From the IMG/VR virus record IMGVR_UViG_3300007538_005612, positions 1-31,816 of that record: a stretch of 31,816 nt of DNA. One strand, given 5' to 3'. Both the position numbers and the translations under genes were made by a program. Source of the DNA: a virus. Below, one piece after another: positions 11,137-30,005 of the stretch. The notes under the pieces are model-generated. The model had not been told where the DNA came from. It saw nothing but the letters and a program-made list of their open reading frames with translations, and made no database searches. Position 1 is the first letter of the stretch. Each line of letters begins with the position of its first letter.

Positions 11137-11325
11137 ATGCTAAAAGTAAAGGTTGATAAAAAAGGTATTGAAAAGGCGTTAAAAACCCTTAAAGGTAAGG
11201 TTATTAAAACCAAACAAAATGAAAAATTAAGAGCGAGACAAGAATATACAAAAAAGTCAGTTAAAAAAAGAGAACAAATGCAAAAGGCTAAGTATGTTCA
11301 GTCATTAAAAAATAACGACTTATAA
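11137..11325 (+). CDS. rpsU: Ribosomal protein bS21 homologue
   Basis: A 62-residue, very basic protein with the bS21 pattern: an N-terminal strand MLKVKVDKKGIEKALKTLK, then a long basic helix with LRARQEYTKKSVKKREQMQK and AKYVQ, corresponding to the LRxRxxYxKPSxxR core of bacterial bS21. It would join the small subunit near the 3' end of 16S rRNA. It is the only plus-strand gene in a 15-kb minus-strand block, and its last 6 nt overlap the convergent neighbour. No Shine-Dalgarno precedes it; a TTATTTAATAG sequence does. Phage-encoded bS21 is known, notably from phages of Bacteroidota, where host bS21 helps to hide the anti-Shine-Dalgarno sequence. Role in host ribosome takeover is inferred. 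Confidence 0.87.
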   Translation: MLKVKVDKKGIEKALKTLKGKVIKTKQNEKLRARQEYTKKSVKKREQMQKAKYVQSLKNNDL

Positions 11326-21674: not shown

Positions 21675-22052
21675 TTAGAGTAGAGCAATTCTACTTTTTT
21701 TCTTTTCTTCTTTTTTCTTAAATGGTAGAATCAACTTCAAAACACCATTTTCAACTGACGCATCAATATTATCAGTATCAATGTGTTCACCAATAGTGAA
21801 CGTTTTACTTACTTCATATGATGTCAAATCTGATGAATACTTCGCTTCAATGAAAAGTCTGTTGTCTTCCAATTCAACCTTAACGTCTTTTTTAGAGAGA
21901 CCTGGTACAAACATTTCAAATTCAACACCGTATTCGGTTGTTCTTTGAAAATAAGATTTATCACCATAAGTGTAAGTTGATGTTTGCCATGATGGTTCGT
22001 TTAGACCACTAAAAATTTTGTCTACTAAATTTGAATTAAGTAATGAATACAT
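21675..22052 (-). CDS. Small heat-shock protein, Hsp20/alpha-crystallin family
   Basis: A 125-residue holdase chaperone. The alpha-crystallin domain runs from about residue 42 (VEFEMFVPGLSKKDVKVELE) to the signature GVLKLILPFKKK near 105-116. The N-terminal arm is short, and the C-terminal IALL resembles the I-x-I/V motif used in oligomer assembly. Hsp20 genes are a regular feature of T4-like cyanophages. Here it is divergent from the clp gene across 176 nt containing paired palindromes, suggesting shared control. No clear housekeeping promoter for it was found. Confidence 0.93.
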   Translation of the reverse strand: MYSLLNSNLVDKIFSGLNEPSWQTSTYTYGDKSYFQRTTEYGVEFEMFVPGLSKKDVKVELEDNRLFIEAKYSSDLTSYEVSKTFTIGEHIDTDNIDASVENGVLKLILPFKKKEEKKKSRIALL

Positions 22053-22228: not shown

Positions 22229-24241
22229 ATGATTGAAGAATTGGATAACGATGGTAAAAAACATTCTCGCCGACAAGGTTCGGAATCTGGAACTCCTGTA
22301 TTGGACAATTTCAGTAAGGACCTTAACAAGATGGCGTCCGAAGGTAAGCTTGACCCTGTTGTAGGGCGTGAGCGTGAGATTAGAAGGATTGCACAAATTC
22401 TTTCTCGTAGAAAGAAAAACAATCCAATTATTATTGGTGAACCTGGTTGTGGTAAAACTGCGATTGTTGAAGGTTTGGCAATGAAAATCCATGAAGGTGA
22501 TTGCCCAAGAAACTTGATGGATAAACGAGTTGTGCTTTTGGATATGACATCAATTGTTGCGGGTACCAAATACCGTGGACAGTTTGAGGAACGTCTGAAA
22601 GTCATTATTGAAGAACTACGTGAGAACCCAAACATTGTGGTATTCATTGATGAGATTCACACTATTGTTGGTGCTGGTAATGCCTCAGGTTCATTGGACG
22701 CATCAAACATCTTTAAACCCGCACTTGCTCGTGGTGAAATTCAATGTATCGGTGCAACAACTCTTGATGAGTATCGTACCAACTTTGAAAAAGATGGGGC
22801 TCTTGAGCGTCGTTTCCAAAAAATCGTAGTTGATTCTCCATCCAAATCTGAAACCTTACAGATTCTTCAAAACGTTAAGTTTAAATATGAGGAATATCAC
22901 AAGGTTAATTATTCAGATGAGATTCTTGGGTTGTGTGTTAATCTTGCTGACCGTTATATTACGGACCGAGAATTCCCCGACAAAGCATTTGACATCATTG
23001 ATGAGGTTGGTGCTCGTTCTCAAGTTGAAATCAAACTTCCTGAGGTTATTGAAAAACTAAAACTTCAAGCATCTCAAATTAAGGAAGAGAAAATCTCTGT
23101 CGTTAAAAAACAGGATTATGAACAAGCTGCTGAACTTAGAGATAAGGAACGTAAAATCTTGTCAAAACTCTCAACTGAGAAAAAGAAGTTTGAGGAAGAA
23201 CTCTCAACACACCGAAAAGACATCTTACCTGAATTGGTTTTGGAAGTTGTATCTAACATGACCAAGATTCCAGTAAACAAACTTTCAACTGATGATAAAT
23301 CTGCGTTGGTTGGTTTGGAAAATCAATTAGGTCAGTCAGTTATTGGACAAGAAGATGCGGTTAAGAAGATTTCAAAAGCTATCCGCAGAAACCGTTTGGG
23401 TATTAAAGACCCCAACAAACCAATCGGTTCATTCATCTTCTTGGGTTCAACAGGTGTTGGTAAGACTCACTTGGCTAAACAACTGGCAAAACAAATCTTT
23501 GGTAGTGAAGACTCTTTGATTCGTATTGACATGAGTGAATACTCAGAGAAACACAACGTATCAAAGTTGATTGGAGCACCTCCAGGTTATGTTGGATACG
23601 AAGAAGGGGGTCAGTTGACAGAAGCGGTTAAGAACAAACCATATTCTGTTGTGTTGTTTGATGAGGTTGAAAAGGCAAACAAAGAAGTGTTTAACACCCT
23701 ACTACAAATGTTGGACGATGGGTATCTAACAGATAGTTTGGGTCGTAAAATCAACTTCAGAAATTGTTTGGTTATTATGACATCAAACATCGGAGCTCGT
23801 AAGATTTCTGAATTTGGTACCTCTATTGGATTTGAGGGTAAACTATCTCACTCTTCACAAGAAGAAAGAAAGCGTTCCATCATCCAAAAAGAGATGAAGA
23901 ATTTCTTCTCACCTGAATTCTTGAATCGTATTGACGAGGTAATTATCTTCAACTCTCTTAAAGAAGAAGAGATTAAGAAAATTGTTGAGATTGAACTTAA
24001 CAAATTGACTGTTCGTCTTCAAGAGTTGAAACTTAACTTCAAATATGATAAGACTATTATTGAACACATTAGTCAAGTCGGATTTGATGAAACCTACGGG
24101 GCTCGCCCTATCAAGAGAGCCATCCAAGATGAGATTGAGGATTTAATCTCTGAAGAGGTTCTAATTGGTAATGTCATTGAAGATAAAAATTACACGTTAT
24201 TCTTCAAAGACGAGAAAGTTCAAATTAAAGGGTCTAAATAG
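22229..24241 (+). CDS. ClpC-like AAA+ unfoldase lacking the N-domain
   Basis: A 670-residue protein with two AAA+ modules. D1 has Walker A GEPGCGKT (70-77), Walker B VVFIDE (137-142) and a KYRG pore loop (114-117). A UVR-like segment (KKQDYEQAAELRDKERK, 293-309) lies in the middle. D2 has GSTGVGKT (406-413), VVLFDE (474-479), a GYVG pore loop (453-456) and an IGF tripeptide at 533-535, at the ClpP-docking loop. Typical ClpC is about 850 aa; the N-terminal repeat domain is absent. The linker TPVLDNF(S)KDL before D1 resembles Bacteroidota ClpC. I chose the ATG at 22229; the in-frame TTG at 22187 lies upstream of the promoter -7 box. Predicted to unfold substrates for host ClpP. Confidence 0.93.
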   Translation: MIEELDNDGKKHSRRQGSESGTPVLDNFSKDLNKMASEGKLDPVVGREREIRRIAQILSRRKKNNPIIIGEPGCGKTAIVEGLAMKIHEGDCPRNLMDKRVVLLDMTSIVAGTKYRGQFEERLKVIIEELRENPNIVVFIDEIHTIVGAGNASGSLDASNIFKPALARGEIQCIGATTLDEYRTNFEKDGALERRFQKIVVDSPSKSETLQILQNVKFKYEEYHKVNYSDEILGLCVNLADRYITDREFPDKAFDIIDEVGARSQVEIKLPEVIEKLKLQASQIKEEKISVVKKQDYEQAAELRDKERKILSKLSTEKKKFEEELSTHRKDILPELVLEVVSNMTKIPVNKLSTDDKSALVGLENQLGQSVIGQEDAVKKISKAIRRNRLGIKDPNKPIGSFIFLGSTGVGKTHLAKQLAKQIFGSEDSLIRIDMSEYSEKHNVSKLIGAPPGYVGYEEGGQLTEAVKNKPYSVVLFDEVEKANKEVFNTLLQMLDDGYLTDSLGRKINFRNCLVIMTSNIGARKISEFGTSIGFEGKLSHSSQEERKRSIIQKEMKNFFSPEFLNRIDEVIIFNSLKEEEIKKIVEIELNKLTVRLQELKLNFKYDKTIIEHISQVGFDETYGARPIKRAIQDEIEDLISEEVLIGNVIEDKNYTLFFKDEKVQIKGSK

Positions 24242-24299: not shown

Positions 24300-25349
24300 A
24301 TGAGACAAGAAGAACTTTCCAGATTTAAAGAATTACTATCAGTACCAAGCAAAACATACTTGGAAAAAATGATGGTTGCACATATTGAATCCGTTCTTTC
24401 TGAAATTGACGGTGTGTCATTTTGGAAGGACGATTTTGATAATGTCTATGCGGTCAAAGGAGAGTTAAACGATGGTGAATACTACCCCATGTTTGTCGCT
24501 CATACGGACACCGTTCACCAAATTGTTGATAAAATCAATGTTATTGAAGGTGAAAAGGTCCTACCACCAACTTTTGGTAAATCATTTCCACAAGATGAAG
24601 TTCATCAAGTATTATACGCATTGGACAACAATGACCTACCAACAGGTATTGGTGGTGATGATAAAGCGGGTATCTTCATTTGTTTGGAATTGCTCAGGAC
24701 TTTGGATAAGGTCAAGGTTGGTCTTTTCGTATCTGAAGAAACGGGTTGTCACGGGTCATCCAAATGTGACTTGGACTTCCTGACCGATGTTGGATATATC
24801 GTTCAATACGACGCACCTGGTAACCACCTAATTACCGAAACTTGCTCGGGGGTTCGTTTGTTTGAAAAGAACGGTGAGTTCATTAACAAAGTATTACCTG
24901 TTATTGAAAAAACAATGGAGACCGAAATGATGCTCCAAGCCCATCCATACACCGATGTATCTCAGTTAAAGATGAAGACAGATGTATCTTGCATCAACAT
25001 CTCTTGTGGTTATTACAACATGCACACACCATCTGAGTTTGTGTCAATTCAGGATGTTGAAAAGGCCATTGAAACTGGTGATTACATTGTTAGAGAGTTG
25101 GGATTGAAGAAGTACGAATACAAATACGAGAAACCAAATTATGGCGGTTTTTTTTACAACGACTATGAAGACGATAGTGATGACAATAATGATTACTTTA
25201 TTGACAGTCAAATAAGTATCAAAGAAGAATCTGACGGTATTATGATTGAGAGCAATTACACTTACGACCAGTTATTTTTATCTGATGATGATTGTGTTGA
25301 ACTATACGATTACCTAAAAACTTATTTAAAACGCAAACTTGCTTATTAG
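24300..25349 (+). CDS. M20/M42-type zinc aminopeptidase-like protein
   Basis: A 349-residue di-zinc peptidase-fold protein. Motifs in order: FVAHTDTVH (H68, D70), TGIGGDDKAG (D120 as bridging ligand), VSEETGCHG (E146/E147, base and ligand), VQYDAPG (D171) and YYNMHTPSEF (H242). This is the metal set of M20/M28/M42 peptidases such as peptidase T; a lid domain is not obvious. The last 75 residues are an extra acidic tail (YEDDSDDNNDY). There is no signal peptide, so it acts in the cytoplasm. A likely role is breaking peptides down to amino acids; substrate unknown. Its stop overlaps the convergent gene by 4 nt. Confidence 0.85.
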   Translation: MRQEELSRFKELLSVPSKTYLEKMMVAHIESVLSEIDGVSFWKDDFDNVYAVKGELNDGEYYPMFVAHTDTVHQIVDKINVIEGEKVLPPTFGKSFPQDEVHQVLYALDNNDLPTGIGGDDKAGIFICLELLRTLDKVKVGLFVSEETGCHGSSKCDLDFLTDVGYIVQYDAPGNHLITETCSGVRLFEKNGEFINKVLPVIEKTMETEMMLQAHPYTDVSQLKMKTDVSCINISCGYYNMHTPSEFVSIQDVEKAIETGDYIVRELGLKKYEYKYEKPNYGGFFYNDYEDDSDDNNDYFIDSQISIKEESDGIMIESNYTYDQLFLSDDDCVELYDYLKTYLKRKLAY

Positions 25350-26624: not shown

Positions 26625-26643
26625 TTATTGTTCTTTGAATTAT

Positions 26644-27031
26644 GGGGGTGACCGGTATTGATTGGCGTTGCTGAGTATCGGGGGCACGTAGTGAGATGTT
26701 TCCTATCACTTTAATCTATGGATGCACATTTTTAAATGGCGATGTTTTCGCAAATCTCGAGGCAGTAGGTCTTCTTGCTGCTGAGGAAGTAGTTGTAGCC
26801 TAAGCTATACCTGCATCAGGTCGGGGGGACATTAACCTAGGAACAGAAGTCCCTTTAGGGTGTGGTTTCTACCCAAAAAGAAACAAGTGGAAGATTAGTT
26901 TTCAGTAAACCGAACCACTATAAAATAAGGGAACTGTAAATTTCGGAGTATTAGAAAATACTGACCTAAACGTGTAGTCCCTTATGTTGAGGACGAGCAA
27001 GACGGGGGTTCGATTCCCCCCACCTCCACCA
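26644..27031 (+). ncRNA. ssrA: Transfer-messenger RNA (tmRNA)
   Basis: A 388-nt tmRNA that rescues stalled ribosomes. The 5' end GGGGGTG pairs with CACCTCC (27021-27027), followed by discriminator A and encoded CCA at 27029-27031. The T arm is GGGGGTTCGATTCCCCC. The preceding CTAAACGTGTAGTCCCTTATG segment matches the conserved 3' half of bacterial tmRNAs. The resume codon is probably GGC at 26738, after AAAT, as in Bacteroidota. The tag frame then runs 21 codons to TAA at 26801-26803, starting GDVFANLE and ending LLAAEEVVVA. Usual Bacteroidota tags are short and end in ALAA. Several pseudoknot-type hairpins follow the tag, such as CCTGCATCAGG. Confidence 0.95.
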
Positions 27032-27034
27032 AAT

Positions 27035-27066
27035 AAAAAACCCCTCTTTATAGGAGGGGTTTTTTT
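27035..27066 (+). terminator. tmRNA terminator
   Basis: A stem AAAAAACCCCTC / GAGGGGTTTTTT with a 7-nt loop begins 3 nt after the tmRNA CCA and ends in T. It may also stop the convergent minus-strand gene. Confidence 0.9.
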
Positions 27067-27085
27067 ATTTTTTCAATATTTTTTA

Positions 27086-27640
27086 TTACCAGTGAACATC
27101 ACCCCAAATTCCTTGACCTCTTGCTCTCGCTCTACGTGCGGCTCTACATCCACTTCCTGAGCTTCTACCTCCGCCACCACCCATGCGGCTAATCATTGCG
27201 GTTAATACACCCAAAAGAACTAATCCTAAAAGAACGTAACTAACAGGTATACCTAAAATCATAGTACCGGCAGCGGCTGCGGCTTGTTCATTTTGTTGTG
27301 TCATTTTTGACTTAACATCTCTATATAAATTTTTTAACGATGATAAGTCTAATGAATTTATTTTTTGGAAAAGTTTTGCAAGATTGCTGTCACCTGTTTT
27401 TTTAACTTCTTGAGTAACTTCTTCAGGTGCTGTACATACTGCCAATTCTGCGGCTTCGTCACTTGCACCAGATTCCTGTTTTAATTTACCAAGAATATCA
27501 TCAACACCCAAGTTATCAGGTTCATATATTCCAGCTTCATTTATTCTTTTTGATTTTTGTTCTGAAACAACAACACCTCTATCATATTGAAAAAGGTATT
27601 TCATTACATTTAATTCTTCGTTTAAAACTTTTTTATCCAT
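27086..27640 (-). CDS. Single-pass membrane protein, unknown function
   Basis: A 184-residue protein. The N-terminus MDKKVLNEELNVMKYLFQYD has an LxE triplet (L6-N7-E8), and RINEAG near residue 34 gives a second IxE. Residues about 128-150 form one membrane segment (GIPVSYVLLGLVLLGVLTAM) preceded by an Ala run, followed by GGGGG and a basic tail with RAARRARARG. No holin or spanin family is recognised, although a small tailed membrane protein next to a peptidase could serve lysis or injection. It follows the M23 ORF by 15 nt. Confidence 0.6.
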   Translation of the reverse strand: MDKKVLNEELNVMKYLFQYDRGVVVSEQKSKRINEAGIYEPDNLGVDDILGKLKQESGASDEAAELAVCTAPEEVTQEVKKTGDSNLAKLFQKINSLDLSSLKNLYRDVKSKMTQQNEQAAAAAGTMILGIPVSYVLLGLVLLGVLTAMISRMGGGGGRSSGSGCRAARRARARGQGIWGDVHW

Positions 27641-27655
27641 AACTTTATTTTTTTT

Positions 27656-27946
27656 TTAAAGACAACCTGTATAAGGTATTAAATCATCTTTTTTATACTT
27701 TTTAAGTATCTGAACCATTTGTTCAGCGTTTACTTTATTTTGACCCATCAAAAACATTCTAATTTCTTTTGCCGCTCTTTCACCCTCACCTCTACCTTCA
27801 AGAAGTTTTTCAAGGATTATAACCAAAGCACCCAAACCCATTTTTGCACCATTACAACCTGGTACAATACTTTCTTTTTTCTTAGAATCTTTCTTTTCGG
27901 CTTCTTCAACAAACTCTCTAAGAGTTTTTCTTATTAAATTATCCAT
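27656..27946 (-). CDS. Probable nested gene in the M23 frame (96 aa)
   Basis: In the same frame as the M23 gene, an ATG at 27946 is preceded by a TATTTATA element 11 nt upstream, the arrangement seen at true gene starts in this phage. The product would begin MDNLIRKTLREFVEEAEKKD and end DLIPYTGCL. Its NLIRKTLRE closely resembles NLVKKVLNE at the N-terminus of the protein at 4331, which supports a real N-terminus here. Either the short protein is made alongside the long one, or this is coincidence. Confidence 0.5.
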   Translation of the reverse strand: MDNLIRKTLREFVEEAEKKDSKKKESIVPGCNGAKMGLGALVIILEKLLEGRGEGERAAKEIRMFLMGQNKVNAEQMVQILKKYKKDDLIPYTGCL

Positions 27947-28555
27947 ATTCTTTTTTTTATAAATATTACGATTTTCAGAAACACCAGGTCCTATCGCAGC
28001 TCCTGCTAATCCAGCAATTGTTAATGGTGTTGCTATCTTTGAAAACATGCCAGTTAATAATTTATTACTATCTTCCGACTTATCAGTTGAATCTGAATCT
28101 TTACTTACCGCATTTGCAAGTGCTGCGGTACCAAGAACCAATGCAGCACCTTTTAAATATGGTGATGGGTCTATGGGCGATTTACTTGAATTTAATAATT
28201 CAAAATGTAAATGAGGACCTTCAGCATTTCCTTTAAATGGGTCATCCTTACCTCCACCGCTTAATGCAATACTTTCACCTTCAGCAACAGTATCTCCAAC
28301 TCTAGCATATCTCTTTTTTAAATGACAATATTTTGTGTAGAAAGTTTCACCATCAACTTGGTGTTTTATCATAATGAATCCACCACATTTACCGTCTCTG
28401 GCTTCATCTACCGATGCAACCACAACACCTCTTGCTGGTGAAACAACACGAGTTCCTGATGGAACCGCAATATCAACTCCATTATGTGGTGTACCTTTTC
28501 TAATACCAAACCCACTTATTATATTATTACTACCTACAGGATTTGTTAATTTCAT
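27656..28555 (-). CDS. M23 (LytM-type) metallopeptidase with C-terminal extension
   Basis: A 299-residue protein. The peptidase domain (about 8-125) has all expected residues: HNGVDIAVP (H24, D28), YCHLKKRY (H78) and GPHLHFEL (H115, H117). It would cut peptide cross-links in peptidoglycan, in lysis or as a virion-borne injection enzyme. No signal peptide is present. After residue 135 there are two hydrophobic Ala/Gly/Leu stretches (GAALVLGTAALANAV; IAGLAGAAIGPGV), then a 96-residue C-terminal part that seems to be separately started at 27946. The start overlaps the upstream GAF-like gene by 4 nt. Confidence 0.88.
   Translation of the reverse strand: MKLTNPVGSNNIISGFGIRKGTPHNGVDIAVPSGTRVVSPARGVVVASVDEARDGKCGGFIMIKHQVDGETFYTKYCHLKKRYARVGDTVAEGESIALSGGGKDDPFKGNAEGPHLHFELLNSSKSPIDPSPYLKGAALVLGTAALANAVSKDSDSTDKSEDSNKLLTGMFSKIATPLTIAGLAGAAIGPGVSENRNIYKKKNMDNLIRKTLREFVEEAEKKDSKKKESIVPGCNGAKMGLGALVIILEKLLEGRGEGERAAKEIRMFLMGQNKVNAEQMVQILKKYKKDDLIPYTGCL
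27958..27965 (-). promoter_or_regulatory. TATTTATW motif inside the M23 frame
   Basis: Minus-strand ATATTTATAAAA lies within coding sequence, 11 nt before the internal ATG at 27946; it encodes part of the NIYKK stretch of the long protein. Confidence 0.45.
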
Positions 28556-29202: not shown

Positions 29203-29427
29203 CTACGAATTTTCTCTTTTAACACCTAAATCTATTTTATACCATATTCTTTCGTGTATAAAATACAAAAACATTTTTGTTATAACTTCTAATCCACCAA
29301 TAGTTAAACCTGTTTTAATATCACCAGAAACAAACCAACCTAATAACATGGTGTCAATTGTACCAACAACTCGCCATGTAATAGTTTTTAATAAATGGCG
29401 ATAAACACTAACATTTGTCTTAGTCAT
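29203..29427 (-). CDS. DUF2061 membrane protein
   Basis: A 74-residue protein fitting DUF2061: RHLLKTITWRVVGTIDTMLL, GWFVSGDIKTGLTIGGLE and the C-terminal YFIHERIWYKID with the conserved HERIW. Two short membrane segments are likely (about 20-33 and 40-58). Family function is unknown; it is common in bacteria and phages. Its start overlaps the HAD gene stop by 8 nt. Confidence 0.88.
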   Translation of the reverse strand: MTKTNVSVYRHLLKTITWRVVGTIDTMLLGWFVSGDIKTGLTIGGLEVITKMFLYFIHERIWYKIDLGVKRENS

Positions 29428-29816: not shown

Positions 29817-30005
29817 CTATATCACATCATTTTCATCTTCTTTTTGTTTTGTAAACATCCAAAGAATTAAGTATATCCAAAATGAACCTGTTGTCAATGT
29901 TAATACGAAAAATAGTCTGGGTAGGATTGGGTCAATATTGAAGTATTCACCCAATCCACCACAAACACCACCAATATATCCATCAGTCCTTGTTAAACGT
30001 TTCAT
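29817..30005 (-). CDS. PspC-domain protein
   Basis: A 62-residue protein that is essentially one PspC domain: MKRLTRTDGYIGGVCGGLGE with YFNIDPILPRLFFVLT, then a membrane segment (SFWIYLILWMF) and an acidic tail. PspC proteins sense or respond to inner-membrane stress in bacteria; the regulatory partners PspA/PspB are not present here. The start overlaps the preceding stop by 4 nt, and a terminator follows. Confidence 0.9.
   Translation of the reverse strand: MKRLTRTDGYIGGVCGGLGEYFNIDPILPRLFFVLTLTTGSFWIYLILWMFTKQKEDENDVI

Follow-up and report, generated by a model that had tools for sequence, protein, structure and literature searches.

Phages are already known to carry tmRNA genes (PMC4131195, PMC9004378, PMC7162821), and ten residues is the commonest tag length in a 2025 tmRNA database (PMC11915505). 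The closest precedent for a longer tag is that of Mesoplasma florum, which is read by Lon (PMC9382460). ClpC, an unfoldase that becomes relevant below, is normally activated via adaptors such as MecA (PMC12521514). Here we analysed a tmRNA gene in an IMG/VR virus record of 31,816 bases (the window, that is, the whole stretch of DNA under analysis), which also encodes a T4-like gp23 capsid protein, a portal, a terminase and a prohead protease.

Positions 26644–27031 of the window are a one-piece tmRNA gene. The RF00023 covariance model matched it from end to end (model positions 1–374, 85.7 bits at a gathering score of 47, E 3.9e-32). ARAGORN missed the gene and reported nothing on the window. 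The following features were located:

26630–26638, + strand: GTTCTTTGA, directly 5' of the tmRNA and also upstream of most relatives
26644–27031, + strand: tmRNA (ssrA) gene in one piece, CCA encoded
26644–26650, + strand: 5' strand of the acceptor stem, with G3 (26646) opposite U (27025), a pair conserved in the alignment
26734, + strand: A at position -4 of the resume codon, the equivalent of E. coli A86, invariant in the phage tmRNAs (22/22 aligned)
26738–26803, + strand: tag reading frame GDVFANLEAVGLLAAEEVVVA plus TAA, placed by sequence, host register and conservation in relatives
26789–26814, + strand: helix 5, the last tag codons paired with downstream sequence (RNA fold)
27004–27031, + strand: T arm (stem 27004–27008/27016–27020), 3' strand of the acceptor stem (27021–27027) and A + CCA end, placed by RF00023, sequence and alignment
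27040–27066, + strand: plausible intrinsic terminator, an ACCCCTC hairpin followed by a T run

The tRNA-like domain contains the G3-U70 pair (G26646/U27025), which is the alanine identity pair, and a canonical T arm (GGGGGTTCGATTCCCCC). Upstream, GTTCTTTGA might conceivably be a promoter element; it occurs twice in the window versus 0.7 times expected. The gene is presumably expressed.

From the GGC at 26738 the frame runs through 21 codons to a TAA at 26801–26803. We place the resume codon at this GGC because its register is shared with host tmRNAs and the A at -4 is invariant. Counted from the first tmRNA base (0-based), the resume codon has an offset of 94 in the window and of 92–100 in Bacteroidota tmRNAs, and the 12 bases preceding it (ACATTTTTAAAT) are identical in the window and in host tmRNA L288. 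In E. coli, A86 is the main determinant of the frame (PMC2481249). As in other tmRNAs, the tag frame stops near helix 5; in the fold of the window, the loop of this helix holds the TAA. Helix 5 was read from single-sequence folds, where it recurred in 55/55 (the window and 54 relatives), and was poorly resolved when RNAalifold was run on the whole alignment. In the relatives that ARAGORN does detect, it gives the same frame as in the window (for example GNTFAKLQAVGLLRTEEVTVA): for seven of them it reported the full tag as read here, and in three the tag started four codons late, at codon 5, with the frame unchanged. Its sensitivity was 10 of the 27 phage tmRNAs of this family, that of the window being among those missed. 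ARAGORN is reportedly the tool of earlier phage surveys, and surveys made with it would undercount such tmRNAs.

The original prediction had read the tag from GGC to TAA as 21 codons with a glycine-acidic start and no terminal LAA, and had allowed that a covariance alignment might move the resume codon into another frame. No alignment did so; the host register, the -4 A and conservation in relatives all agree with that reading, and by these sequence comparisons the frame is the one that opens at GGC 26738.

Host tags were read from a sample of Bacteroidota genomes. Of 48 genomes, 45 yielded a tmRNA, and the tag could be read in 38 of these 45, a simple 5'-end pattern having missed the rest. 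The host tags follow a GGN resume codon, comprise 9–10 residues and end in ALAA or AMAA (GENNYALAA, GESNYAMAA and GETNYALAA are examples), much as the original prediction had expected of short, ALAA-ended tags. It had also named the same tag in hosts as the finding that would speak against it; the phage pattern was searched for and occurred in 0 of 395 Bacteroidota genomes. A standard ssrA tag has a C-terminal [LM]AA and about 10 residues; the tag of the window has 21 residues and ends in VVA.

Relatives were collected by several routes. Matches to the tmRNA's first 19 bases were present in 22 viral contigs, and scanning these together with terminase-close records with RF00023 revealed 26 further full-length tmRNAs. 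All 14 that were found only via terminase and RF00023 encode a 21-residue tag. A degenerate pattern made from the last 12 tag codons, the second half of the tag, was present in at least 119 viral contigs; by our own estimate, chance would give about 0.15 matches. Each of the 103 newly fetched pattern contigs was open over exactly 21 codons; the ten codons outside the pattern were open in 103/103, and the first residue was G in 101 and D in 2. Loci picked by Clp similarity alone added more tags, each 21 or 22 residues long, and this length range held for every full tag read. Among 87 distinct tags, all ended in Ala, 78 had V in the second-last position and none ended in LAA. Strong conservation extended into the first half (G1, L7, G11, L12), G11 and L12 being nearly invariant.

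Across 63 distinct DNA versions of the tag, diversity at the three codon positions was 0.31, 0.16 and 0.46, pS was 0.48 versus a pN of 0.25, and amino-acid swaps among the tags were conservative. Since third codon positions vary most, the sequences indicate that purifying selection acts on the tag peptide, and not on RNA structure alone. The hydrophobic moment gave no support for the first half of the tag forming an amphipathic helix (0.225 versus 0.241 with positions shuffled, 52% of shuffles being as high). What the original prediction had treated as a single oddity appears from these comparisons as a conserved trait of a large, mostly uncultured group of Bacteroidota viruses. Searches of 50,697 phage records with the tmRNA and the tag (blastn, tblastn) gave no match, and no tmRNA was found in Flavobacterium phage immuto, the nearest cultured relative by terminase (27%).

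Some relatives carry interrupted or shortened tmRNA genes. Group I introns (RF00028, 52–106 bits) split the T loop in L092 (7041+), L095 (12845+), L097 (8719+), L102 (6780+) and L084 (~3972-); T-loop introns are known from bacterial tmRNA genes (PMC11915505), and those listed here lie in phage tmRNAs. The final CCA is not encoded in L110, L112, L115, L141, L142 and L143, where its addition would fall to the host.

We then analysed the gene surroundings of the tmRNA. The relevant genes of the window are:

11137–11325, + strand: ribosomal protein bS21, a marker of the phage group (PF01165 at 11146–11298, E 1.5e-9)
21675–22052, - strand: Hsp20 small heat-shock protein gene (PF00011, 5.6e-14)
22229–24241, + strand: ClpC-like AAA+ unfoldase that has the IGF loop but no N-domain (ORF start listed as TTG 22187; Pfam/PHROGs and alignment to host ClpC)
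24300–25349, + strand: M42-like peptidase (profile searches)

The bS21 gene lies on the + strand inside the structural block, in which the terminase, portal, capsid and protease genes are on the - strand. Counting the window, 29 phage records bear a tmRNA, and in 21 of them bS21 scored above the family cut-off. Near the structural genes there are also small genes whose products have PspC and DUF2061 membrane domains (29817–30005 and 29203–29427, both -).

A Clp gene was present in 28 of the 29 records, with an M42-like peptidase next to it in 28; the record lacking them is a fragment of 21.7 kb. Of 103 loci selected by their tag, 66 contained a Clp gene, in all of them upstream and on the same strand, and it was never missing where the upstream sequence reached 6.5 kb or more (66/66 with enough sequence). 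The reverse comparison gave a tmRNA 1.95–5.66 kb downstream in 62 of 80 phage loci selected by their Clp gene, and in 47/47 of those with at least 5.66 kb of downstream sequence. These counts reflect one conserved arrangement due to shared ancestry and not many independent events. A ClpP gene was found in three of the 29 records (G006 40112–40639, G015 154176–154703 and G026 26763–27290), beside the ClpC-like ATPase and the tmRNA. A peptidase query (27656–28555) revealed no relatives among viral contigs. SmpB was searched for in the 29 phage records, including those of 293, 242 and 172 kb, and was found in none; the tagging pathway would thus depend on an unseen host partner.

An alignment to ClpC from six Bacteroidota shows that the phage protein has retained both AAA+ domains, the pore loops and the M-domain with a UVR-like motif. 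The ClpP-docking loop of the second AAA+ domain reads GTSIGF in the window and is [IV]GF in six phages and six hosts. The N-domain is absent: 4–19 open codons precede the shared region in the phages versus 172–203 in host ClpC. That is, the protein has the hallmarks of a ClpC (Hsp100) ATPase except for the N-terminal adaptor-binding domain. With this domain lost, the phage ClpC should recognise its substrates in another way, and a dedicated tag would fit. In G043 (45288–50781, -), the Clp gene is in three pieces, contiguous in protein and about 1.6 and 1.8 kb apart, which suggests introns or inteins.

We propose that the phage tmRNA would be charged with alanine and, using host SmpB and ribosomes, would append Ala and the phage-specific 21-residue tag to the proteins of stalled ribosomes. 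The tag would be a dedicated degron. Its hydrophobic, Ala-ended tail, and probably the conserved first half as well, would be read by the N-domain-less ClpC-like ATPase, whose gene lies some 2.4 kb upstream; this ATPase would dock on ClpP, supplied by the host or, in some relatives, by the phage itself, leading to degradation of the tagged chain, and the adjoining M42-like peptidase may finish the peptides. Stalled ribosomes would be cleared and amino acids recycled by a route apart from host GENNYALAA tagging. We lean towards this explanation, a working phage tmRNA with a dedicated degron for phage Clp and ClpP, somewhat more than away from it. The original suggestion that a phage ClpC serves the tag is strengthened by the genes (a Clp gene upstream on the same strand, the N-domain lost, the docking loop kept), and recognition of the tag by the ATPase is what we infer. 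Some points temper the degron reading: host ClpC also has the IGF loop, the phage Clp may read substrates other than this tag, and host ClpX may still recognise the V-A end.

The last point leads to the main competing explanation, in which the tag is a degron for host ClpXP (or ClpC). Its length and tail would then have drifted in the phages around an Ala end that is still readable, and the phage Clp would have other substrates. Each of the 87 tags is Ala-ended and 78 close with V-A, while the engineered LVA and SVA variants of the E. coli tag are working degrons (PMC9382460); moreover, the initial contact of ClpX with ssrA is to the C-terminal Ala-Ala (PMC10638403), and the last of these alanines is kept in the phage tags. 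With a V-A end so similar to working E. coli variants, one cannot assume that the tag escapes host ClpXP. However, the first half of the tag, which ClpX would not need, is strongly conserved at G1, L7, G11 and L12, the host tail A[LM]AA is kept in 0/87 tags, and the phage invests in its own N-domain-less ClpC next door. We regard host ClpXP as an unlikely reader, though one to be taken seriously. The same tail bears on the possibility that the tag stabilises proteins or makes them useful, for instance as a localisation or binding peptide. The missing host-like LAA end and a conserved first half, which suggests a binding partner, would fit such a role, but the universal hydrophobic, Ala-ended tail and the Clp and peptidase neighbours point to degradation. 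The protection from degradation that the original prediction had considered thus finds no support in ends so close to E. coli LVA and SVA (PMC9382460), and we consider a stabilising tag very improbable.

Ribosome rescue in infection, for example after mRNA cleavage, could instead be the main benefit, with the tag no more than a permissive frame that carries a stop and is maintained by RNA structure. The tag end lies in helix 5 in every fold (55/55), and in E. coli, changes to the tag sequence hardly affect tagging (PMC2481249). Against this, third codon positions vary threefold more than second positions (0.46 vs 0.16), outside helix 5 too, amino-acid swaps are conservative and the length is fixed at 21–22, which makes rescue alone an improbable explanation. 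Finally, the frame could be wrong and the true tag short and host-like; ARAGORN did report a shorter tag, from codon 5, in three relatives, though in the same frame. The host-aligned resume codon and the invariant -4 A contradict this, as do the 63 tag DNAs: in every one, frame 0 stays open for 21 codons while the other two frames are interrupted by stops, although the search pattern itself forces the one in frame +1. We give a wrong frame almost no credence.

Taken together, the conserved long tag and the trimmed-down unfoldase gene beside it suggest that protein disposal in infected cells follows a route controlled by the virus, and phages of this group seem to control the fate of rescued proteins beyond the freeing of ribosomes. 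Whether this amounts to an orthogonal tag-and-destroy pathway, with a viral ssrA degron and a viral unfoldase that lacks the host adaptor domain, and with ClpP borrowed or brought along, we put at slightly below an even chance. To our knowledge, no earlier viral degron/unfoldase pair has been coupled to ribosome rescue. If true, efforts to degrade proteins orthogonally in Bacteroidota could draw on such a pair, and the Clp gene, which earlier work on the phage group reported without a substrate, would have one. Since the tag is conserved at the peptide level throughout a widespread group of phages, distinct from host tags and encoded beside an unfoldase of the phage's own, the question why phages carry tmRNA becomes testable.

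How does the locus compare with described systems? By gene layout, it matches the bS21-encoding huge phages of freshwater Bacteroidota (PMC9723584), which share bS21 opposite the terminase, portal, capsid and protease genes as well as Clp and Hsp20 genes; in its main text, that study lists genes for Clp protease and Hsp20 in these phages and makes no mention of tmRNA. Other phage tmRNAs, namely those of mycobacteriophages, phage G and marine myophages such as Melnitz (PMC4131195, PMC9004378), are likewise virus-carried and presumably use host SmpB, but no such tag family has been described for them and several are two-piece or TLD-only. Our literature search returned no paper on the tag family and no tag peptide strings, and the tmRNA database could list single members. 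In an unrelated 484 kb phage we observed a tmRNA (L407, LR756508.1 92434–92880) with a possible 36-codon tag ending in PAAV, and a second gene (L409, 414804–414915) that is tRNA-like-domain-only, as in phage DS6A.

With the tmRNA of its Bacteroidota hosts, the phage tmRNA shares the one-piece form, the GGN resume codon in the same place, the upstream context and the alanine acceptor end. However, host tags have 9–10 residues and an A[LM]AA end, whereas the phage tags have 21–22 and mostly a VA end. The M. florum ssrA tag (PMC9382460) offers the same combination of a longer tag, a changed C-terminus and a different AAA+ protease. There, the system is cellular, in bacteria without active ClpXP, the partner is mf-Lon and the tag ends in NYAFA; here it is viral, and the candidate partner is a ClpC-like ATPase.
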